Assembly (NCBI GenBank): GCA_003024175.1
Contig: MDYQ01000016.1
Span: 210,813-274,812, forward strand
Origin: Planoprotostelium fungivorum
Lineage: Eukaryota > Evosea > Variosea > Cavosteliida > Cavosteliaceae
Direction of reading: 5' to 3'
Length of the DNA stretch: 64,000 nt
The notes under the pieces are model-generated. The model was not told where the DNA came from. It did not search any database and was given only the letters and a program-made list of their open reading frames with translations. The position numbers and the translations under genes were made by a program. This document shows, one piece after another, positions 8,109 through 58,656 of the stretch (position 1 is its first letter; each line of letters begins with the position of its first letter).

Positions 8109-11100
8109 TCAACGACGGACGCGGCCCAGATCAGTCACCAGCTGTAAGTTGGTATTGATGGCATCTGCAGAAGGATGAGACGACAGGATGGATGGCATCG
8201 ACCTCACCGATGTAGAACTTGTTGACGACGGATTGCTTCTCGATGCGTTTGCTCAACTTGGTCAGAGAACTCTCGTCTCTCACTTGGAAGTCCCTCTACC
8301 CAGCGTCAACCTCTATGATAGTGCATCATGATGACTCACCCTCGTATGCATCGCCTCTACTTCTTTCATCTTGTTCTTGATGGCAATCACCATCTGAGCC
8401 GATCAGCTCCATCTCTCGTTCCATCATCAAGCAGCTCACCTCATCCATCTCTTTGCACAGGATCTCCGTCTGGTCCAATTTCTTCACAGTCTTCGCTGGT
8501 GCCGGCGGTATCGGTGGCTTCGCTTGCTTCTCATCGTTCGCCGCAGGTTTTGTGATAGAAGGAGAGCTGGGTAAGTGTCCACCCAACGATAGAGGTCTGG
8601 TGCCGACCTTCTTTGTGGCCACGGGGGATGCAGATCTGAAGGAAGAATCGTTCTTCGCATTCGCAACAGGCTTAGGAGGTGGTGTAGGCTTGGGTGGAGC
8701 GTACATCTCCCTCACGAGGGCACCGTACTGGTTCTTCTTCATCTCCTTCTCTTTCTTCATGTCTTTCGATGCCTGTACGGCCTTCTTCTTTTCTAGAACC
8801 ATTTGCTTCTGTCGTGACGTCAGATGAGTCGGACGTCTGATGGTGGACTCACAGAGGCTTGGATTCGTTCTTGTGGAACCTTGTAAATTCTCTCCTTTGG
8901 TAGCTTCGTCATCTGAGGCGACGCATTCGAAGGGACCTTCTTTGGCCTGACCGGCACCTTTGGTTTCGGCGGCGGTGCCGCGACAACATTCTATACGCGG
9001 TCACACTTCCGATTTCATTCTCTCATGTCGTCTCACCTTGTGGGCTAATTCCATGCGAACGAAGAGTGGTTTCATCTGCAGTCTCTTCTTTGCCTCCTCC
9101 ATCATCTGTTTCTCCGCCTCGATTTGCCTCTGCTCTTCTTCTCTCCTCTTCCTCTCCCTTCTTGCTTCGATGATCTTGAGGCGGAAGTTCTTCTTGGCCT
9201 CGGCTCGCTCGTCTTCCTTCTTTCTCTGTTCCTCACGCTCATAATATTCTTCTTCTTCGTATTTCGCCTCCATCTCCCTCTCCTTTTGTTTTCTCAGCTG
9301 ACGATGAGGTCAGATATGGATGATCACCAGAAAGATCATCACCTTCTCTTCCTTCTGCTTGCTCTTCAATCGATCTTGTGCTTGAGTGACTATCTCGGGG
9401 GATGGTTCTGGAAGGATTCGGCTACCCCTTGGTGTCCTCTGTTGTGGCTGAGTCGGTTGTACCGATGCTCCATTCTGTGGTTCGTTGATACTGATGATCG
9501 ACCTGCCACCCCCGAGGATAGCAGGGGATCTCTCCAGCTGGAGAGGTGGGGGCTTCTTGAAAGTGAAGACCGGTGTAGAAGGAGTCTCTTCATCGGAATC
9601 AACGTCGACGTCCAGGTCGGCCAGAGAATCGTCTGACTCGTCTTCCATGAGTTGATCGAAAGTCAGGGGTGCGTTTCGTGGCTGAAATCAGTCAATTTTC
9701 GGCGCGAAGAGGTTTAGCGAGACGGGAAGATGATGACACACCATGATGTGAGAAGTCGTCGCTTCCACCTCTTCGAAAGAGTCTTCCACATTGACTTGCT
9801 CCTCTACTGAATCTTCCTTCTCCTCCTTTGCATTCTCGTGAATGTCGTCATGATGGACGTCGTCATCGTGTGGATCGTCCTCTCGTTTTTGTACAACAGA
9901 CGACTCTGCAGACAGGATCGCATCCTCTTCCCCTCTCTGTACATGAGTGTCCTCTCCTTCGCTCTGATCTCCCAATAGAACATCCTCCTCTGTATCCTCC
10001 ACCCTTGGCGAGTTGTAGATGTCATCTTTCGTCTCGGTCTGTCCTTCCAATCCATCAGCATCGTCTTCTTCAGACGCTGATGTTGGTTGACCCGTATGTT
10101 CTTCAAGGTGTTCTTCCTCTTCATAGACCTCTTCCTCCTCTTCTATCACTGCCTCTGCAGCAGCTTCTTCTTCCTTCTCTGACGTCTCTTCTGACAGATC
10201 TTCTTCCTTCTCTGACAACTCTTTCTTCTCCTCTTCATTCTCTGGCAGCTCTTCCTTCTCTTCTTCTTCCGAGCTGCTCTCGTCTGAAACAAAGATTGAC
10301 TCTGGTTGGAGGTTTCCTCTCTCTCGCTGAGAACCGTTGACATCTCTACTGTGCTTCGAGGACACACTGGTGTCGTCTCCTTGACTATCTTCGTCTTCAC
10401 TGTTCGAGTCTTCCTCTTTAGAATGTGAGATAAGTTGAGGTCCTTCGTTGTTGTGATCGTTCAGTTTTTCCACTTGTGAGTGTGGTGGACTCGGTTCGAG
10501 TGCTTCGCTGCTATCACTGTCTGATTCAGCTTCCTCTGAGGTGGATCGCTCCTCGTTGGCCTGGGTGTCGATGTCTTCTTCTATCGAAGTGTCCGAATCT
10601 TCCTCTTCTGTGCGTAGCTCAGGCTGCAATATGTCCCTCTCTTTCTCCAAGAACTCCAATTGCGAGTTGAGCTCCATCTCTTCGTACGAATCTGACTCTT
10701 CATTGCCCTGCTGGGTTGTCGGTAGTGGCCGTCCACTTTCTAAAGAGTTTGGTGTCTCCTCCTGCTCTGTGGTTGAGGTAGCTCGCTCCTCCGGTACATC
10801 TTCCTCGGAGGATGAGATTTCCTCTTCTTTTGTATTGCTGGCGATCTGTCTCGACGAAGGAGAAGGTGGTTCAGCTGGATGATCTGATGGATCTTGAGCC
10901 GCCAGTTGCCGGGGCGACGCTGCCGTGAGCTCAGATAGTTGTGTCGGTGGGTTGGCGACATCGGTATTCTTCATGGCGACTGTCTCTTCGTCTGCTGTCG
11001 TAACTTGCTCTTCTTCTGCATCATCTGACATGCTATCTTCTTCCTTCATCACTGCGGAGGACACGGTATTCTTGTCTACGCCGTTGTAGATGGCATCTTC

Positions 11101-13741
11101 TTGTGGAGTATCCTCGATGTTTTCGTCCGAATCGAGATCTGAAGAATCACTGACGGACAAGGCTACGCTCTGTGTTGAATAGCTCGATACGCTGGGAAAT
11201 ATCTCTTGGTCCGAATAAGGATGCTTCAGCGTGGGTGACGATTCTTCCTTCACGATGGGAGGGAGACTCCTATTGGATAAGGGAGGAGAAGTCTCATCCT
11301 CTGATGGTTGTGATGAGTCTTCTGCTGTCTCCTCGACCTGGAGCGTCGAGAGTGGCTGTTCTTCTGACGCGATGTCCATGTGGCCACGCTCGCTGTGCAT
11401 GGATGAGGCCCGCGAAGACTTTTGTGTGAAAGTCTCAGTATTTTGGCTCCTGGTAGAGGGTGGAGCACTCTCTTCGTCGGACATTGAAATGTCTGTGCCT
11501 TCCGGTAGAGGTGGTATCAGAGGTAAGGGAGGGGGGATTTCTGAGAAATCAAATCCGGTGGGTGGTAGCGAGGCTGTTCCCGCCAAATCGTGTTGTACAT
11601 TTCTGGCGGAGTGAGGTGCAGATGTCGGCTCTGTCTCGTGGGGCTCTCCTTGAAATCCACTACTACGGTTTAACAGGGGTCCGATTGATTCGGGCTCGGA
11701 ATCCAACTCGTGTGGAGTTTCCAACGGATCGGGAAGCTTTTCTGAGAGGCCGACGAGGAGATTCTCTTCTTGATGCTTTTCTTTCAGAGACCCTCCACTT
11801 CTAGCGGATAGATCACCTATGGATTCTTGTTGGAATTCAGACTCGGACTCAGATTCGGAATTGACTTCCGTGCTTGGGAGATCAGAGTGGACACTCCTGG
11901 CCGAGTGAGGGGCAGAAGTGGTCTGCTTCATGTCTTCTTTCAGAGGCATTGCAGGTTCAGCAGTATCTGTGTCGGATGATGAATCGGAATCCGATTTCAC
12001 TGCCTTCGGAATTCCGTGGTCCGAGTGAACACTTCTGGCAGAGTGTAGAGCGGATGCTGGCTGGCTCTCGTTGTCCCCTCGAGATGACCGTCCAGTTCTG
12101 GCCGATAGATCTCCCGTAGATTCGTGCTCCAAGTCGGATTCGAACTCGGACTCGGACTCGAACACGGAATCCAACTTTCCATCTCTCGACTGCTGTTTCG
12201 GTGGAATACCTCTGGCGGAAGTGGGGGCTGATGATGGTTCTTCAAAACTCTCGGACTCTGAACTGTTCTCGGACTCGGACTCTTCCATAGCCTCCTGCGG
12301 GTCTTCATGTATCTCTTCCGCGATGGAGCTGCGGCTCCCTGATATTGACGAACGATGACTCCTCTGGCTCTGAGATCCCGATTTCTGTCCCACACCCTCT
12401 CCATCAGATGACTCCACGATGTTCCCAGGCTCCACTCCTGCTCCATCATCCTCCATTCTCTTCTCCGTTTCAGTTGAATGAAGTGCTTCTGCATCTGCTC
12501 CTTCTGAATCTTCTTCTTGCGTACTGCCTCCCGCCTCCTCTTCATCCTCGCTCGAAATGGATGTCCTCATCTTCCCTACGTCTGTTTCGTGGGTACTGCG
12601 AGCAGATAGAGGTGCAGAGGTGAGCATCCTCTTTGCCGATGGGGGTGCAGATTCGCTGTCGAAGTCGTCCGAATATTCTTCCGCAGGGAGTGTCCTTGCT
12701 TCCGCAACTTCACGTTGTGTGGGGGAGGGAGGTGTCGATCTCTTCAGGCTCCTTGCCGAAGGAGGAGCCGATGAGGTGTGCTCGTCTGTCTCCATCTCTT
12801 CCATCACGCCGCCGTGGTTCTCCGTGGATGATCCAACATCGATAGCTGGGGGCAATGTAGCCTCACTGATTTCTTCCCTGAAGCTCTTCCCGCCAGAAAG
12901 AGTCTCCATCTCATCTTCTTCGATCGCAACTTCCATCACGTCGTCTGATGTGAAGTCCACGAGTGCCCTCTGTACTTCTTGACCGTCTGTGAACGTGTCC
13001 GCCTCCGAATCATCGGATGGTGATGCATCTACGTCCAAGGATCTTCTCTCCGTTCCTCTCGCCTCTGTCGTGTGTGCCTCAGGTGTTTCTTCGTCTCCTC
13101 TATCTTCTGATCTAGAGTCATCCAAAAATCCCGAAGAAGCTTCTGTCAGCATCTGATCCTCTAGATCGCGACTGTCTCGCTGGTTGGGACTCAATTCTTC
13201 GAAGTCATCTTCGAAATCATCTTCGAAATATTCAGCTTCGCTCGTGTGAGAGTTCGTTTCTGATGGGGCGTAAGATCCTCTGCCAGATCGAAGCTGTGCC
13301 TCTGTTCAGATCCATGATTCGCACATGTCCAATCATCGTCTCACATCGTTCACACGATGGAATCCTTCTTCTGGTTCATCGGGGTCGGTGAAGGCATACC
13401 TATCTTCCCCGGTTTCCGTGCCAGAGTCAACTTCTCTAAGAAGATGATCTCCAAATTCTTCCATCACGACCACGTTTGGATCGCTCAGGTATTCTTCGTC
13501 CTGACGCTGATAACTCTGAAGGAGATGAGTGGAAAGGTGATTCGATCACATCGGATACGAACCGTATGGGATTTGGGCTCGACGAAACGTAGAGGTGAGC
13601 CGGATTGGAGATGATTTAGAAATGATGCGTAGATCTCATCGACCGCCTCTGAAGCTACCTGAAATGCCACATCAGATGATCACGCAGTGAGCGATATTAT
13701 TTCACCTTCTGATAGATTCCTTCAGCAACAGAGACACTCAT
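8109..13741 (-). CDS. Very large acidic, repetitive coiled-coil protein
   Basis: The gene starts ATGAGTGTCTCTGTTGCTG at 13741 and after three short introns enters a single exon of about 3.5 kb (13.2-9.7 kb). That exon encodes a Ser/Glu/Asp-rich region in which SAPxSAR-like blocks recur (SAPPSARSLKRS, SAPLSARSTHE, SAPTSARG, SALHSARSVHSD, SAPHSARSVHSD, SAPHSARNVQHD). Downstream exons encode PRNAPLTFDQLMEDE, a highly charged coiled coil at about 9.0-9.3 kb (KEREMEAKYEEEEYYEREEQ and on), a Pro-rich basic stretch, KKNQYGALVREMYAP, and a conserved-looking C-terminus SKRIEKQSVVNKFYIDAINT ending LGRVRR. The total is roughly 1,650 residues. No enzyme domain is visible. The composition suggests a cytoskeletal or ciliary/centrosomal scaffold, but that is speculation. 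It diverges from UTP11 across 251 bp. Confidence 0.7.
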
Positions 13742-13992
13742 CCACCGCTAGGCTGCTTCGCTTCGAAAGTGACCGTCGATGTGGTGTCAACGATTTCCCG
13801 CCAAAAATAGGCGGTGTGAGCGATCGGTATGCACCTGTAGTTGTTGTCTATCCGTTCGTATTAGGAGACTCTCGCTCGTGTCCACAGCCTCCACGTGATG
13901 ACGCTCAGCTTGCCGGTGCAAATGTGGCTGATAGCGTTGTAGATGGTCGGGAAAAAAAGAAATGGAACAGAAGAGAGAAGAGGAACATCGAA

Positions 13993-45999: not shown

Positions 46000-48900
46000 A
46001 TGTGGTCAGCTCTGCTTTGGTTCATCTCGGCTGTCTGTCTGTTTCTGTCGTTGCCGGCGAAATGTGGAGCCGATCAAGTGGTAACGATGAAGGAGATCTG
46101 GGCCACATTGGGAGGTGAGAGAGCTTTACATTCATCTGAGCTGATTCTGAGGAAATAGGCTCACCACAGTATTGGCAAGAAAACGATGTGTGATCTCGTC
46201 TTTCTCTCGTACCGATGTATCAAACAAGCCAACATCTTCACCTGAATCATTCAACTGACCGTATTTCAGGTCTGCAACTCTACCGACTACGTCGGTGTCA
46301 CCTGTGATTCTACCTCCTCCTGGCCGGTCCAGATCACTCTCCCTCAAATGGATCTGCATGGCACCCTCTCCCCTTCCATCGGCAGTCTGGTCAATCTCAC
46401 CACCTTGGACCTCTCTTCCAACTCTCTCTCGGGTGCCATTCCATCATCCATCCAGAATCTCACCTCCCTGCGATCTCTGTCTCTGTCCGACAATCAGATC
46501 AACGGCTCTATCCCCACTTCTCTGGGAGATCTAGTCAGTCTCGTCAACGTGAGTCTCTCCCACAATGACCTCACCGGACCCATCCCTGACTCCATCGGCA
46601 ACCTCACCCCTCTCACAAACCTCGACCTCAGTGCAAATGGACTGAGTGGATCCATCCCCTCCTCCATCGGTCACCTGACCTCCCTTCTTCACATCTCTCT
46701 CGCCATGAACCAACTCTCCGGCATCATCCCCGACTCCATCGGTGGCCTCACCTCCCTCCAGACCTTCTTCCTCTACCAAAATCAACTGAGCGGCCCCATC
46801 CCTGATTCCATCGGCAATCTGTCTTCTCTCACGTACCTCGACTTCAGTACAAACGGACTCAGTGGATCCATCCCCTCCACCATCGGCAGCCTCACCTCCC
46901 TACAGTTCTTCGTCCTCTATTACAATCGACTGACCGGACCCATCCCTGACTCCATCGGCAACCTCTCCTCTCTCGTAACCCTCAGCCTCACAGGAAATGG
47001 ACTCAGTGGATCGATTCCGTCCACCATCGGTCACCCGTCAATGTTACCTCAACTCGAACAGACTGTCCGGAGCCATTCCCGGGTCCATCGGTGGCCTCGC
47101 ATCCCTTCAGGAACTCGATCTCAATTACAATGGACTGAGCGGCACCATCCCTGACTCCATCGGCAACCTGACCTCCCTCACGTACCTCAACTTGAGATTC
47201 AATCGATTGAATGGGTCCATCCCCGACACCATCGGCAACCTCTCTTCTCTCTCCCTCTTTAGAATGAGTGGAAACGAGCTCACGGGTACGATACCAGCAT
47301 CCATCGGTCGTCTGACATATCTGACAATCCTCGACATCGATTCCTGTGGGTTGAGCGGACCCATCCCTGACTCCATTGGCAATCTGACATCCCTCACGTA
47401 CCTCATACTGGGTGGCAATCAACTGAGTGGACCGCTACCAGATGACATTGGAAGGCTGAAGAACCTCACCTACTTGTACCTCTCCGATAACCTATTGACT
47501 GGATCCATCCATGCCGCTGGGAATCTGACTCTCGTTCGGACGCTCTACCTCAACTTCAATCGATTCAGTGGAACCATCCCGTCCTCCATCTTTGGTCTCC
47601 AGTACCTTGCGAATCTCGACCTATCGAACAACCAATTCAGTGGTGTCGTCAGCTCCGCCGTCGGCGAGTTCACCTCTGCACGACAGATCTCTCGCACCAC
47701 AACGACCTGACGGGTACCATTCCGGACACGATCGGAAACCTCTCCTCCCTCTCCATTCTATCACTCTCGGACAACTCGTTCACTGGTGCCATACCAGCTT
47801 CCATCGGTCACATGGACCATCTGCAGTCGTTGTACTTGGATGGCAACCGATTGAGTGGTTCAATTCCAGACACCATCGGCAATCTCGTCCGCCTGACGAA
47901 TCTGGACCTCTCGAATAATGTCCTCACTGGATCTTTACCCTCCTCCATCGGCAGTATGGTCTCCCTCTCGTTCTTCTACCTCAACAACAACCAACTCAGC
48001 GGTCCACTACCAGGTGAAGTACAGATGAACGGTGAGCAGGTGACCGAATCATCCACAGATGGAGTCGTGAATCTGCCCAACCTATCGATTCTGAGGGCAT
48101 ATTCGAATCAGCTCAACGGTACTGTGCCCGGAAGGAACACCAGTCTTACTCCACTGAGTGATCTGTACCTCTATGACAACATGTTCACGTCAGTGGGGTA
48201 CATCAGCGTCACGGGAATCTGTAGGCTCGGTCTGTATGTCCCTTGCACACCTCGACTGGATCTGGCGCCTAACTGCATGTCATCTGTGATCTACCTGACT
48301 TGCACCTCCACCTCTTCGAACAGACTCGATAACAGCACTAGTCCGCCGAGACCCTCCACCTCTTCCAAACGATACACTGGATCTCAAACGATCTCCACAA
48401 CATCATCCATCAACACGACTGTAGTCTTGACGTCTGCAGAACAAGCGAGGGTGAGATTGATAACAGACAACGAAGGTGATGACTGGTGAACAGAGCACAC
48501 TGGACAGTTCCCCGTGGAGTAATGGACAGGAGTTTGCGGTGAGAAAGTGAGAAGAGAAAATCACTCAGCCGTTCCAGGTTGGCGAAGTCATCTCTTCTGT
48601 GATCGATGCCCTCCTCCGTAGCACATCATCCTTTGGGTACCAATCAAAGAACGTGTCACTCGAGCTACAGACTTTTGATTTGAGCTCGAACGGTCAGGTG
48701 AAGAATAGCATTCCCAGCCAAGGCGTTTCAGTAGTGCTTCCAACCTCAATCTTATCCACTCCACGAGGTGACGTTCCCTCGCTCATCTCTGCATTGAATG
48801 ACAAGGAACAGTCTCCGTATCTCTCTCTTCGATCTCTTTCAATCCTTATGTGTTTTTCGATCCTACGGACATGTGAGTCTACACACTCTGTCTATCTGAC

Positions 48901-51079: not shown

Positions 51080-52019
51080 ATGGTAGGCAAAAATGGATGC
51101 ATTCACTGCAAGTCGTGCGGAAGGTATGTTTGAAAGGTCTGATGCAGATCGATCTCATATGACGCAGGTGCGACTTTTGTTCTGGAACAGGAAAGAGCAA
51201 ACTCTTTCAATCGGCCTGCATCCATTGCAAAGCATCCGGTGTGTGTGGTTTCTGTAAAGGACAACCTTTCGGTGTCCCCATCGCTCAGCCCGTCTATACA
51301 TCCCCCCCTGTAGCATACGGAGCACCTCCATCATATCCTCAGACATTTCAACCGTCGATGCCTTATGGACAGCCCACACCGTATGGACAGCCCGTACCCT
51401 ATGGACAACCCATGCCTTACGGTTATCCTCAACCTTCTGTTCAGACCACATATACAACCGTCGTTCATCAACAGCCTGTGAATCCATTCATCGCATTGGA
51501 GAGTGGTCCCATCGCCCTCCGATCCCATCATGGCGCCTACCTCTCTGCACGCGAAAATGGTCAAGTCCAGCAGGTGAACGATCATTCAACGCATCGTGTC
51601 GTCTCTGACATCTATTCAGATGCCTCACAAGCAAGCTTGGGAGGGATGGTCTATCTTACCCACTGGCTCGCCCGGGTACTATTATCTTCGGTGAATAACC
51701 TCACATGATGTTCTCATGTCTTTATCACTCGACATTCGATTGACGGCTTCAGTTCTCACCACGGTAACTACCTCTCGGGTAACTCCAACGAGACCGCTCA
51801 CCTCGTGAGTCCTATCCATCTCCGTCCATCTTCATTTTCTGATGGAATCAGATGCCTCATATGAAGGAATGGGAGGTGTGGCAGTTCATCCCCCTCAACA
51901 ACGGAAAGTTTGCCGCTCGGTCTATCCACGGGACTCATCTGAGAGCTGCAGAGAGGGGTCCGGTCAATCTGACGAAAAGTCTTCAAGATTGGGAGCAGTG
52001 GTCCGTCGAGAGGTTCTGA
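51080..52019 (+). CDS. Cys-rich N-terminus plus fascin-like beta-trefoil protein
   Basis: The start MVGKNGCIHCKSCGR joins CDFCSGTGKSKLFQSACIHC, KASGVCGFCKG: a CxxC-rich module with a CxxCxGxG unit like the DnaJ zinc centre. A Pro/Tyr/Gln stretch with repeated PYGQP follows. The C-terminal half has IALRSHHGAYLSARENGQVQ, WEGWSILPT, FSSHHGNYLSGNSNETAHL and KEWEVWQFIPLNNGKFAARS, ending LQDWEQWSVERF. These (H/R)HGxYLxA...W(E)xW repeats are typical of fascin-type or FRG1-type actin-crosslinking trefoils. Five exons with 40-60-nt introns. Actin binding is a family-based guess. Confidence 0.68.
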
Positions 52020-52147
52020 TGACCTCGATCATTCTAAATACGAAATAAAGAACTACGTGTCATCATCCATCACATTGCGATTGCCATTGATGAGACATGG
52101 CAAGCATGAAACACAGTGACCTGAGGCTCGAGATGAGACGGTTTTAT

Positions 52148-55100
52148 CTAGTACCCTCTATCATGACGTGGAGGTGCTCTCAAATTCTTCGTCTCCTGTG
52201 CATTCTGAATCAATTCGATCAGAGTGGGATAAATCTGTTCTCCCATCAGCTCAACTCCATCACCATCATCACGATGTGCGACGTCACATCATCTCACCTG
52301 TTGGCCGTCTTTAAATTTGTAACCTCCATGTGTGGGCTCGATCAACGTGTGAGAGATAGCTCTCTTATTCAAACTGAAGAACGACACCGCGTATGAATCC
52401 TGCGCACCTTTAGAAGTCGATCTACACCGTTGTAGATGATCGTCTCACCCGAATGGAAGATTTTCTGACGAGAAAAGAATCGTGGGAGCAGTTTCTGAGG
52501 ATTTTCTCAGCTTCTTCTCTCTCCATGGCGCCAAAATACCAATCCATACGGCTCAAGTTGAACCATTGGGACCAGTCTACCTGCTCCTCGTCCTGTTCGA
52601 ACGTTTGAACTTTGAATCTCCCGCCAAAATCTCCTCACCTCTCCCAACATGGGCTGACCGCCCCGGCCTCCGCTGGGGGCTCGGTTCCTCGTTGTAGATG
52701 GACCGGGTGCCGCCCTCGCCGGTTCCTTTGGAATCCGCTGCTACCTTTCAGATCGAATTCTCTTCGAGTTTAATTTTCTTCGAGTTGAAATTTCATCGAG
52801 TTTGAATTTCGTCGAGTTTTCTCACATCCATGTCACTGATGGCTCCCTCGTTGAGACACTCATCGATGTGCTTGTTGATCTCCGTGTTGTTCATTCCAGC
52901 GGGAAATTTCATGGTACAAATGGGGCATCTGTTGCTACCCGCATCTTCACTCACAGCAGGAGGATTCGACGTTCTACAACGCTTCAGTCGAATGAAGCGG
53001 TGGGGATCTCACCTGGCGGGAGGTTTCGAGGGATTAAGGTTTAGCTTGCCGAAATTTCCCGCCAAATCTTGGTTCATTGTAGATTGAGGTGGCACCCCCA
53101 TCTTGGTCGGCTGCGTCTGCGGTTTCGGTGCAGAGAGAAAATCAAAGTCGAACACGTTGCCGCTCTACCCTCGTCAGTATGACGTGTGATGACGTCATCG
53201 ACGATCTACAACGTACCGGTTGCGGTTGAGATGGCGTCGCAAACGATTGGTCCGGCTGCATGAAGGGGTTCGTTGTAGATGGAGGTGTCATTTGTGTTGG
53301 AAAGGAGGTGGATTGCATCTGAGGGGGTATCATGTTGGGCTGCGATTGCATGTGCAGGGGGAGAGTGTTGTTTGGCGCGTTGTAGATCGGACCATTCGGT
53401 TGGGCCTGGCCCATCACGTTGGCAAACTGTCTGGGTCAGGAGAAATTTCTTGGAATGATTGAGTACCTGTTGCTGTTGTGTGGGTAATTGTCCTGGCATC
53501 ATGGTGTTGACGGGGTACTGTAAGAGTGAATAAAATGAAATAAAATGGAGATGGAATTCGATCGTGCTTGTGATGAGAAAACTTACCTGCTGCTGTTGGG
53601 CGGCAGGTTGGTTGGACATCATGTTGTTGTTGAACTGTCGAGTATTCAGTGAAAAGTCAAAGAAATTTGAGTGAAATCTACCTGAGGCATGGGCTGCAGT
53701 TGTTGTCCCATAGGGAACTGTGTGAGGTGAGACGATGGATTTTCTGCAAAATTTCACCTGCTGTGGGTTGTTTCCCATGGGAACATTCTGATTAGCGGGA
53801 AACTGTACGGGTCAGAAATGTCATCGATATTTCGACAGCTTCACACCTGTTGATTGGGTGGACGATTGTGCATGCCTTGACCCTGGTTACCACCGGGAAA
53901 CTACAACGAGTCAATTCTCCATCGCTTCCAGACGGTACAAAAATGGCGGGAAAATCCACCTGCTGGAAGGGTACCTGCTGCTGCTGCATCTGCTGATTGG
54001 ACGTATTGTTTCCTAAGGGAAACTGATATCTCATGAGACATCTCAACTCTTCCTCTCCTCACCTGCTGAGTGTTTGACTGGTTGTAGTTGGGCTGTCCGC
54101 TGAAGGATCCGCTCTGACCCTGGACTCCTCCCTGGGAGGGCCCACCGTACGGCGTGGCGTTCCCTGGCGTTCCCAGGCTGAAGAGGTCATCGAAGACGTT
54201 GTTGTTGGGCTTCGCTGGCTGGCTCGAGGACTGTGGGCGATTCTGCATCGGCTGATTCTGAGCGTTCATGTTTGGCTGATTGTAGTTCATCAATGGATTG
54301 AAATTCGATGGGTTTGGCTGGTTGTAGTTCTGCTGATTCTGCTGACTGAAGTTCTGCTGATTTTGCGGGGTAAGGTTCTGCTGATTCGGCTGGTTGTAGT
54401 TCTGCTGATTCGGCTGGTTGTAGTTCTGCTGATTTTGTTGGTTGAAACTCTGCTGATTCGGCTGATTGTAGTTTGGCTGGTTCGATTGGCCGAAAGTCTG
54501 CTGGTTCTGCTGGCCGAAATTCTGATTCTGAGCGTTCATGTTTGGCTGGTTGTAGTTTGACTGTCCACCGAAATTCTGTCCCTGGTACCCCTGCTGTGGC
54601 CTCTGCTGAGCCTGACCGGTGGGTGCTGTTACCGTCAATTTACACGAAATTTCATCGATATTCACGTGAAAAGGGATCGAAATTTGTCGACGCATCTGCC
54701 GACGGAGAATCATCCCAATCGATCAAGCTGCTCTGCCGGCGTCTCAATCGTTTGGTCCGATCTACAACGCTCACCTTGGGTGGAGCCGATTGGCTGGGTG
54801 GACGATTTTCGACTTTTGTGGGAGAGACGATCTGAGATGATCGTGGGGGCGTCTGCTGTTTAGAGGATGGAGCCTCCTGACGATGATGATCTTCTCTCGG
54901 TGGAGCCGAGTACCACTTCTTATCGACGTAGGTGAGACGGATGAACTCTCTGATGCGCTGTGTCGCTCCAGCCTCGGGCTCGGCGAACTCTTTGGCTGAC
55001 CATCTGGCGCGCCATACATCGCGAGCGGGTCCATTTCCTTGGAAGGTCAACTTCCTGAGAAGGTGTGAGGAGAGAGGAGAAAGATGGAGATCGACAGAGC

Positions 55101-55432
55101 TCACTGGACTTCATCGTCTTTGAATGTGCTCATGGAAGGTGATTTGATCTTGTGATTGAATTCACGACTGAGGGGAGTCAGGGGAGAGGAAAAGATGAAG
55201 AGAGGAACATCCAGATGGAGGACGATGGGACTCACTGTATACCACTGCATGCCGCACACACCCATGTTCCATAATCCAATACGACATATTGAGGGTACTG
55301 TCCCTGTTAGATTCTACACGATGCATCCGATATCACCATTGCCAGACAGTCCATACATCTTCGGTTCTCGGGCTGGTTTCTCAGCTCTTTTAGAATGTTC
55401 AAGTTCTTCTCTTCCTGTTTCTTCGCTTGCAT
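52148..55432 (-). CDS. AGFG-type ArfGAP with Asn/Gln-rich region, zinc finger and C-terminal SH2
   Basis: The start MQAKKQEEKNLNILKELRNQ, PENRRCMDC, then YPQYVVLDYGTWVCAACSGI, HREFNHKIKSPSMSTFKDDE and GNGPARDVWRARWSAKEFAE, with IREFIRLTYVDKKWYSAP, form an ArfGAP domain with the C-x2-C...C-x2-C zinc site, closest to AGFG/HRB. Next comes a long Asn/Gln/Pro-rich stretch (NYNQPNQQ repeats), with NVFDDLFSLG and NVFDFDFLSAPKP as likely adaptor motifs. Then RCPICTMKFPAGMNNTEINK, HIDECL, a UBZ-like zinc finger. The last exons encode an SH2 domain: MDWYFGAMEREEAEKILRNC, FLVRKSSIRDSYAVSFFSLN, KRAISHTLIEPTHGGYKFKD, IYPTLIELIQNAQ. All exon joins keep phase, so one gene is likely. It would link Arf traffic, ubiquitin and phosphotyrosine. 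Confidence 0.78.
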
Positions 55433-55852: not shown

Positions 55853-56697
55853 ATGGCTGCCATACCAACTGAATACCCTCCCGCAACTGACGCCGAGTTT
55901 GCCGACTTCATAAACTTTGCCGACTCCACCTCTGGATGGTCTGAGGCATACAGCGCCGAGACCGTTCACGTGTGGGATCAGAAGGTGAGAAGTCCATCTT
56001 TTCAAAATGCATCGGGATGGAGGTGGTTCTAAATTGGCTCCCTGCAGTCCGACAAGTCTGCCGTCAACGTTGTGAAACTCCACGCCGTCTTTACCGACAT
56101 CGACGCCGGTGTCCTCTACGATACTCTCCACGATCCCGAGTACCGCCAAGTGTGGGACGAGTCTATGATCGAAGGTTTCTGCATCGAGAAGATCAACAGC
56201 CACAATGACGTCGGTTACTACTCCGCCAAGGTGAGTTCAATACGTGGACGACTTCCAAATCTCATCCTCTGAAGGCTCCCCCGGGTGTCTCGAACCGTGA
56301 CTTTGTCAACGAGCGCTCTTGGAAAGTCACAGACGACCGAGAGTTCCTCATTATGAATCACTCCGTCATTCACCCCAAACAACCCGAGAAGAAGGGATTT
56401 GTCAGAGCTAACTCCATCCGCACGGGTTACCTCGTCCGCCGCCGCGAAGTCGGAGGTTGTGAAATGACTTACATCACGCAGACCGATCCCAAAGGTGAAG
56501 ACATGTCCATCGGACGCACGATCCATCCTCTTCATCGCGAGAGTTGACGTCCATCAGGTTGGATCCCCACCATGTTGACGAACAAGGTGACCAAGACTTT
56601 CGCTCCCAAGATCATCGACAAGTTGGAGAAAGCTGCCAAGGCTTACCCAGAGTGGAAGGCCCAGCACAACCCCACCGACAAGCCCTGGAGAGTATAA
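55853..56697 (+). CDS. START-domain lipid-transfer protein
   Basis: The start MAAIPTEYPPATDAEFADFI; the whole protein is one START domain: DTLHDPEYRQVWDESMIEGF, CIEKINSHNDVGYYSAK, GVSNRDFVNERSWKVTDDRE, RANSIRTGYLVRRREVGGCE, MTYITQTDPKGWIPTMLTNK, ending EWKAQHNPTDKPWRV. The R-D-F and Y-x-Q-x-D-P-x-G-W-I-P motifs are typical of PCTP/STARD10-type proteins, which bind phospholipids in a deep pocket. About 230 residues after four small introns. C-ending codons suggest high expression. It diverges from the ArfGAP-SH2 gene. Confidence 0.9.
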
Positions 56698-57917: not shown

Positions 57918-58547
57918 TCAACACAGCTTGAGAACCACCATCACGACGGATCCCTCTATGATGTTGGACTCGAGAGCGGTGCATTCGTCGGCGAGCTGTT
58001 TTCCTCCAAAGACAAGCCTCATGTGTTCGTCTGGTATGCCATTGTCCTTGCCGTACACTTGTTTCATCTGCAAGATGGTCGTGTCTGGAGCGATGACTTG
58101 GCTGTGTTCTTGTCCTTGAAGGTCTCTAATCTTGATGTGGATCGATGGAACATTCGAGGACACCAGGGTGGGATTGTGATCTTCATCTTCTTCCGTCTCA
58201 TCAAAAGGTGGCCAGTATGCCTCCGGTGGATCGATTGCATAAGCCTTCTTGTATTCCTCTAGCGTCCTCTCATATCGAAGCCTCCTGGCGGTGAACTCTT
58301 GCGCTCCATCTGGATTGTGATCGATGAAACGTCCGAAATGACTCAGACAATACTCTCTATACGATTTCGTGTCTAAGATGTGCTTGTGCCACACGTAATC
58401 GACGATCCCACTGGGTGATAACATCTCTGCATCAAAGTCGCCCACTTTGAACTTGAGATTTAAGAAGCGTATGTATTCACGAGCCAGATAAGGGTCCGAG
58501 GTGTATTTGCCTGTGTCCATGCTGTCCCACATGACGATAAAATGCAT
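57918..58547 (-). CDS. Fusion of a GRDP-like helical domain and a C-terminal ubiquitin-like domain
   Basis: One intronless 209-codon frame. The N-terminal part (REYIRFLNLKFKVGDFDAEM, LSPSGIVDYVWHKHILDTKS, YREYCLSHFGRFIDHNPDGA) resembles the helical WHxHIL segment of GRDP/DUF1399-like proteins. The C-terminal 75 residues are ubiquitin-like (IHIKIRDLQGQEHSQVIAPD, TTILQMKQVYGKDNGIPDEH, MRLVFGGKQLADECTALESN) and end VVMVVLKLC, without a GG. So it is not a conjugated modifier but a UBL adaptor. The function is unknown. Its start lies only 23 bp from the tRNA gene's 3' end. Confidence 0.75.
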   Translation of the reverse strand: MHFIVMWDSMDTGKYTSDPYLAREYIRFLNLKFKVGDFDAEMLSPSGIVDYVWHKHILDTKSYREYCLSHFGRFIDHNPDGAQEFTARRLRYERTLEEYKKAYAIDPPEAYWPPFDETEEDEDHNPTLVSSNVPSIHIKIRDLQGQEHSQVIAPDTTILQMKQVYGKDNGIPDEHMRLVFGGKQLADECTALESNIIEGSVVMVVLKLC

Positions 58548-58569: not shown

Positions 58570-58656
58570 TGCTCAATGCAGGGATCGAACCTGCGACCCC
58601 CGCGTGTCGTGGGACGTGTATTAGCACGGTGCTCTAACCAACTGAGCTAATCGAGC
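58570..58656 (-). tRNA. tRNA-Ile (anticodon AAU) with a 13-nt intron
   Basis: The strand complement folds as a standard tRNA: acceptor GCTCGAT/ATTGAGC, D-arm GCTC...GAGC, anticodon stem CCGTG/CGCGG, loop CTAATAA with anticodon AAT, T-arm GCAGG TTCGATC CCTGC, discriminator A. A 13-nt intron (58606-58618) lies after position 37, the canonical place. A- and B-box promoters are intact and a TTTT follows shortly downstream. Confidence 0.95.

Follow-up and report, generated by a model that had tools for sequence, protein, structure and literature searches.

The window analysed here, a stretch of 64,000 nucleotides, carries between positions 52148 and 55432 of its minus strand what is very probably a single gene for a protein with an AGFG-type ArfGAP domain, a UBZ-like zinc finger, and an SH2 domain. 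The coding region comprises 18 exons for 803 aa, from an ATG at 55432 to a TAG that ends at 52148, and the frame stays open once 17 GT-AG introns of 39–88 bp have been removed. The motifs that a preliminary description of this DNA had quoted in proposing such a fusion were found again on the minus strand at the same positions. In our first-draft model (806 aa), 10 of the 17 introns contained an in-frame stop if retained and intron 10 alone combined the lack of a stop with a length divisible by three, so that any long product needs nearly all introns to be spliced.

An intron 1 of 33 bp was dropped from the draft and the start of exon 2 was set at 55297, which moved six bases and removed two extra residues; the best ArfGAP match rose from 89.6 to 92.6 bits after this change. 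Also dropped was an acceptor of intron 14 ending at 52741, and since this acceptor was outscored by 98% of the 249 AGs in the gene, exon 15 was made to start at 52737, where the new acceptor scores 3.8. Codon scores, for which three long frames from other parts of the window served as the training set, back the model frame in five (4, 13, 14, 16, and 17) of the eight exons that were scored out of 18, and fail to back it in exons 12, 15, and 18.

A plus-strand START-domain gene, which probably begins with an ATG at 55853, lies head to head with the fusion gene at a distance of about 420 bp, and on the other side an open frame at 51843–52019, if it is a neighbour's last exon, ends about 130 bp downstream. 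A WD40 protein and a leucine-rich repeat protein are encoded farther off, and nothing suggestive of a functional cluster was seen around the gene among ten open frames scanned with Pfam. The leucine-rich repeats, as in plant receptors (LTGPIPDSIGNLSSL), occupy three overlapping plus-strand frames at 46246–48489, the first of which was scanned with Pfam. On the minus strand, a frame at 57918–58547 has a ubiquitin fold at its C-terminus (Pfam ubiquitin, 1.1e-15) and no Pfam match in its N-terminal part, a stop-free frame at 9688–13305 would encode 1205 aa in which Ser, Glu, and Asp are very abundant and SAPxSAR motifs recur, and a tRNA lies at 58570–58656 (Rfam, 54.5 bits), on which ARAGORN agrees while naming no anticodon, perhaps because of an intron. 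The 10-mer ATCTACAACG occurs 18 times in the window against 0.11 expected from shuffles, and seven of its sites fall between 52428 and 55762 (four exonic in mixed reading frames, two intronic, one upstream); it may be a regulatory word in dispersed copies or a signature of the genome as a whole. Another word, TTTCCCGCCA, which we take to resemble an E2F site, is present six times (0.04 expected), at 13794, 21159, 53055, 53944, 62629, and 63025.

Domains of the predicted protein

The ArfGAP domain (54907–55396, minus strand; aa 13–123) is spread over four exons and was found at 1.1e-27 in a Pfam scan of the 803-aa protein (96.9 bits against a cut-off of 28.7). By comparison with solved structures rather than from a tree, its best match is RIP/AGFG1 at 1.5e-25, with the next class, ArfGAP1, eleven orders of magnitude behind at 2e-14. 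RIP and AGFG1 are names of one protein in two papers (PMC12350278, PMC6912373). The four zinc-binding Cys residues (26, 29, 46, and 49) are present in the pattern C-x2-C-x16-C-x2-C from residue 26, and the stretch CSGIHR from residue 49 holds a putative catalytic Arg54; the domain is predicted to act as a GAP. The protein resembles AGFG1 (Hrb, RIP) and AGFG2 in its N-terminus and ArfGAP domain, which are colinear with AGFG1 from residue 4, and in possessing a long low-complexity tail. We know of no AGFG protein with a UBZ or an SH2 domain.

The second domain is a UBZ-like CCHC finger (52856–52927, minus strand) with Cys627, Cys630, His646, and Cys650. A 41-aa query containing it matched 13 sequences of solved structures at E ≤ 1, namely TAX1BP1 (four rows, 4.6e-5), Pol kappa (one, 6.5e-5), FAAP20 (two, 0.012), RAD18 (two, 0.013), WRNIP1 (one, 0.069), and three others: ZNF423, a RING Z protein, and an aldolase. 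The stretch of Pol kappa that was matched is presumably its UBZ, and the helix NKHIDECL of the finger resembles NKHVDECL of Pol kappa and, as we assume, the helix of RAD18 as well. The five named UBZ hosts are DNA-repair or autophagy proteins; the present finger is like theirs in sequence and unlike them in remaining below the Pfam cut-off (UBZ_FAAP20, aa 625–653, 0.0056, 16.9 bits against 25). A structure predicted from the single sequence has a helix across the His/Cys half at a mean pLDDT of 70, and a fold search with this model returned seven matches at E ≤ 10, none of them significant, of which five were TAX1BP1 UBZ chains, including the best (E 1.8).

The spacing of the ligands, C-x2-C-x15-H-x3-C, equals that of FAAP20, for which Cys147, Cys150, His166, and Cys170 are given as zinc ligands and D164, L167, A168, and L171 as ubiquitin contacts (PMC4370504). 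In an alignment, the finger has Asn, Ile, Asp, and Leu at these four contacts, and because Asn and Asp replace D164 and A168, ubiquitin binding in the manner of FAAP20 appears unlikely. Binding in the manner of RAD18 is possible, and the finger may in this sense be a ubiquitin reader.

The SH2 domain (52205–52541, minus strand; aa 711–785) is encoded by three exons and reaches 1.4e-10 in Pfam (41.5 bits against a cut-off of 21). It opens with a W-Y-x-G...R...A pattern and contains FLVR at 733–736, with the phosphate-binding Arg736, and the His758 of an SHT motif. At E ≤ 0.001 it matched 109 distinct solved sequences; among the best 60 of these, the top chains are p85 alpha, and SH2 chains of SOCS6, BLNK, RASA1, and VAV are also present. 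The best single stretch is the C-terminal SH2 domain of p85 (E 3.9e-6), with which the FLVR Arg and His758 align, and the domain is predicted to bind phosphotyrosine.

Part of the domain evidence is independent of splicing, because unspliced pieces match as well: of seven pieces scanned with Pfam, the first SH2 exon was the only one above its cut-off (1.1e-6, 29.1 bits), and matches below cut-off were obtained for two ArfGAP pieces (2e-4 and 0.021) and the finger exon (1.9e-4, 21.6 bits). The preliminary description had named an AGFG-type ArfGAP, a UBZ-like finger, and a clear SH2 domain, and all three identifications hold on the matches and ligand residues given above; as regards Pfam profiles, the spliced protein bears out ArfGap and SH2, whereas the finger falls short of the UBZ_FAAP20 cut-off.

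An Asn/Gln-rich linker with YNQP repeats

The ArfGAP domain is followed by a linker of 495 aa that contains 101 Gln and 73 Asn. Its exon 5 (54063–54625, minus strand) consists of Asn/Gln-rich repeats with regularly spaced Tyr or Phe, among them six YNQP units (54273–54554, minus strand; aa 228–321), a feature absent from the preliminary description and new here. These units belong to a set of eight YxxP in the linker, a number that none of 2000 shuffles reached (mean 1.53), and in exon 5 a Pro stands at +3 of seven of the nine Tyr and none of the nine Phe (Fisher p 0.002), a test that overstates independence because the YNQP units are tandem repeats. There are silent codon differences among the six units. 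Several YxxP in a disordered region, as potential SH2 ligands, also characterise the substrate domain of p130Cas; in the present protein, unlike p130Cas, the Asn/Gln-rich YNQP repeats share a chain with an SH2 domain, and no homology is claimed.

With such a linker, the protein may offer SH2 ligands besides reading them. Taken further, a single gene could encode an SH2 domain that acts mainly on its own linker, phosphorylated YNQP binding SH2 in cis or in trans and thereby controlling or clustering the ArfGAP. The excess of YxxP over shuffled linkers and the preference of Pro for Tyr over Phe speak for this reading, while the tandem nature of the repeats means that the counts lack independence, the presence of Tyr in Asn/Gln-rich tracts may have other reasons, and the reading calls upon a putative kinase and a predicted SH2 specificity; we consider it unlikely.

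Linker exons 6–12 (53217–54022, minus strand) are all in phase 0 and include one NPF at aa 543. All seven start with Phe or Tyr, five end with Gln-Gln, and six are 36–63 bp long, a pattern suggestive of tandem duplication of a single small exon. The evidence from endocytic motifs is weak. Neither the four FG (1.58 expected; reached by 6.6% of shuffles) nor the one NPF (0.54 expected; 41%), motifs that would recall the tails of AGFG1 and AGFG2, exceed chance, and DPF (0.09 expected; 8.5%) and FxDxF (0.04 expected; 3.5%) are single occurrences; a loose clathrin-box-like pattern occurs twice, as in 1.6% of shuffles.

Probable continuity of the gene from ArfGAP to SH2

Whether the three domains share one gene was judged from splice scores, with matrices built from the gene's other 14 introns, a small set that itself rests on our gene model. 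The ArfGAP-to-finger join is strong. Intron 13 (52974–53012, minus strand; 39 bp), which connects the AGFG half with the exon of the zinc finger, has a donor that none of the 147 GTs in the gene outscores and that contains an in-frame TGA, which would end the AGFG half if left unspliced. The path from exon 13, which occupies 53164–53013, to the finger through this single intron scores 11.8, a value that was not reached in 1000 dinucleotide shuffles of the gap, 369 of which allow some path. Moreover, 12 ATGs were listed between 53012 and 52449, and not one of them precedes the first Cys of the finger in the finger's own frame, so that the finger, to be intact, has to be joined by splicing to some upstream sequence.

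The finger-to-SH2 join is moderate, and its intron 14 (52738–52825, minus strand; 88 bp), between the zinc-finger exon and exon 15, is the weakest join of the gene. The two-intron path from the finger to exon 16, placed at 52592–52449 in the model, scores 10.7, which 78 of 1000 shuffles reach (581 allow some path), and the best path in this test takes the exon 16 acceptor at 52581, not 52593, giving four residues fewer. Enumeration of paths yielded 118 in-frame connections from 53164 to 52574, and in 52 of these the frame of the finger's RCPIC is preserved. Several give exon 15 other boundaries, and one variant with four introns slightly outscores the three-intron model (24.8 vs 23.3), so that the linker of 33 aa from the finger to the SH2 domain is uncertain. 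Exon 15 itself (52639–52737, minus strand), which encodes this linker, lends the join support through its composition: it is 69% G+C, a value reached in 0.06% of 6391 99-bp windows, and it is open in all three frames, as was none of the 99-bp windows sampled from 548 bp of flanking intergenic DNA.

A reading with two adjacent genes would divide the locus here. An AGFG-UBZ protein would end at a TGA in intron 14, with DMDVRKLDEIQTR before the stop, and a small SH2-only protein would start either at ATG 52650 in exon 15 (spliced MLGEDEEQVDWSQ) or at ATG 52547 in exon 16 (MDWYFG), both of which exist and could give a separate gene the whole Pfam SH2 domain. The shuffles that match the finger-to-SH2 score are consistent with such a division, as is the compactness of the neighbourhood, with its short distances upstream and downstream, which makes a short intergenic gap possible; for the start at Met 52547 in particular, the Pfam SH2 match begins downstream of that Met. 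Against this, the stretch that aligns to the N-terminal SH2 domain of p85 begins with NLSRMDW, four residues before Met 52547, and a 3' end and a promoter would have to fit into only about 140 bp (ATG 52650) or 245 bp (ATG 52547). Exon 15, moreover, is unlike the flanking intergenic DNA in its G+C content and open frames and joins the finger exon in frame behind a well-scoring acceptor. Poly-A-like words cannot separate one gene from two, because among five such words tried on the minus strand of 52000–53100 none lies 3' of the final stop; ATTAAA occurs at 52774 and AATGAA at 53078 and 52895. On balance, two genes are quite unlikely, and the single gene that the preliminary description had proposed is very probably correct, on the splice-score tests together with the GC-rich exon 15.

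A predicted link between phosphotyrosine and Arf

We consider it reasonably probable that the single-gene product is an AGFG-type ArfGAP that would be targeted, through its C-terminal UBZ-like finger and SH2 domain, to tyrosine-phosphorylated and ubiquitylated cargo. The order of the domains and their key residues, and very probably their one shared frame, can be read from the DNA itself. In the proposed mechanism, the SH2 domain would dock on a membrane receptor or scaffold phosphorylated on tyrosine, and avidity for ubiquitylated cargo would be added by the finger, so that both would place the ArfGAP at sites where activated, ubiquitylated cargo is collected; Arf-GTP would be hydrolysed at these sites and a coat or actin programme changed there. 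The endocytic setting is suggested by analogy with AGFG1, which binds Eps15 via NPF motifs and sorts VAMP7 according to one study (PMC6912373).

SH2 domains are found on several regulators of small GTPases. RASA1 (a Ras GAP), the chimaerins (Rac GAPs), VAV (a Rho GEF), RIN (a Rab5 GEF), and BCAR3 are such proteins, and the present protein is like them in combining an SH2 domain with a regulator of a small GTPase in one chain. To our knowledge none of them serves Arf, the GTPase of the present protein, and while regulators of Ras, Rho, and Rab have SH2 domains, none is known to us on an Arf regulator. A literature search, which covered titles and the openings of abstracts among the matches listed and whose scope left out the two main SH2 surveys, found no protein combining ArfGAP and SH2, and a search for SH2 and ArfGAP together with Amoebozoa or choanoflagellates likewise found nothing. 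ArfGAP relatives were absent from the bacterial and archaeal contigs (23 pattern matches) and viral contigs (three) that were screened, a result that has no bearing on amoebozoans.

The preliminary description had added that SH2 proteins are few in this lineage. Published counts agree for Dictyostelium, with 12 in an older account (PMC1420674) and 15 in another (PMC4758236), and for Physarum, with 18 (PMC4758236); Acanthamoeba has 48 (PMC4758236), because of which phosphotyrosine readers are not rare across all amoebozoans, and the statement is overstated if the lineage is amoebozoan. An alpha kinase of Dictyostelium carries an ArfGAP domain (PMC1420674), so that ArfGAP fusions do occur there.

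That the fusion is domain-shuffling noise, expressed with an SH2 domain or finger that has no role, or that the assembly joined separate loci, is very unlikely: lineage-specific fusions do occur and two FAAP20-type ubiquitin contacts are not kept in the finger, but both fingers keep their zinc ligands, and the Arg finger of the ArfGAP, the FLVR Arg, and the SH2 His are retained as well.

Beyond the cargo-targeted ArfGAP, a more speculative extension, which we regard as rather improbable, is a self-wiring phosphotyrosine–Arf switch, in which YNQP repeats phosphorylated by tyrosine kinases would be bound in trans by the protein's own SH2 domains, ubiquitin would also hold the assembly together via the finger, and ArfGAP activity would be concentrated at endocytic or phagocytic sites. 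We know of no such chain of target, reader, and effector in one polypeptide described for Arf, and the YNQP-rich linker would allow SH2 self-targeting to be tested in a simple cell. If the join between finger and SH2 is confirmed in RNA, signals in the form of tyrosine phosphate would be wired directly to vesicle traffic. Phosphotyrosine signalling would then be linked straight to Arf-dependent traffic in a lineage, and the gene would provide a testable case of new signalling links arising through domain fusion.
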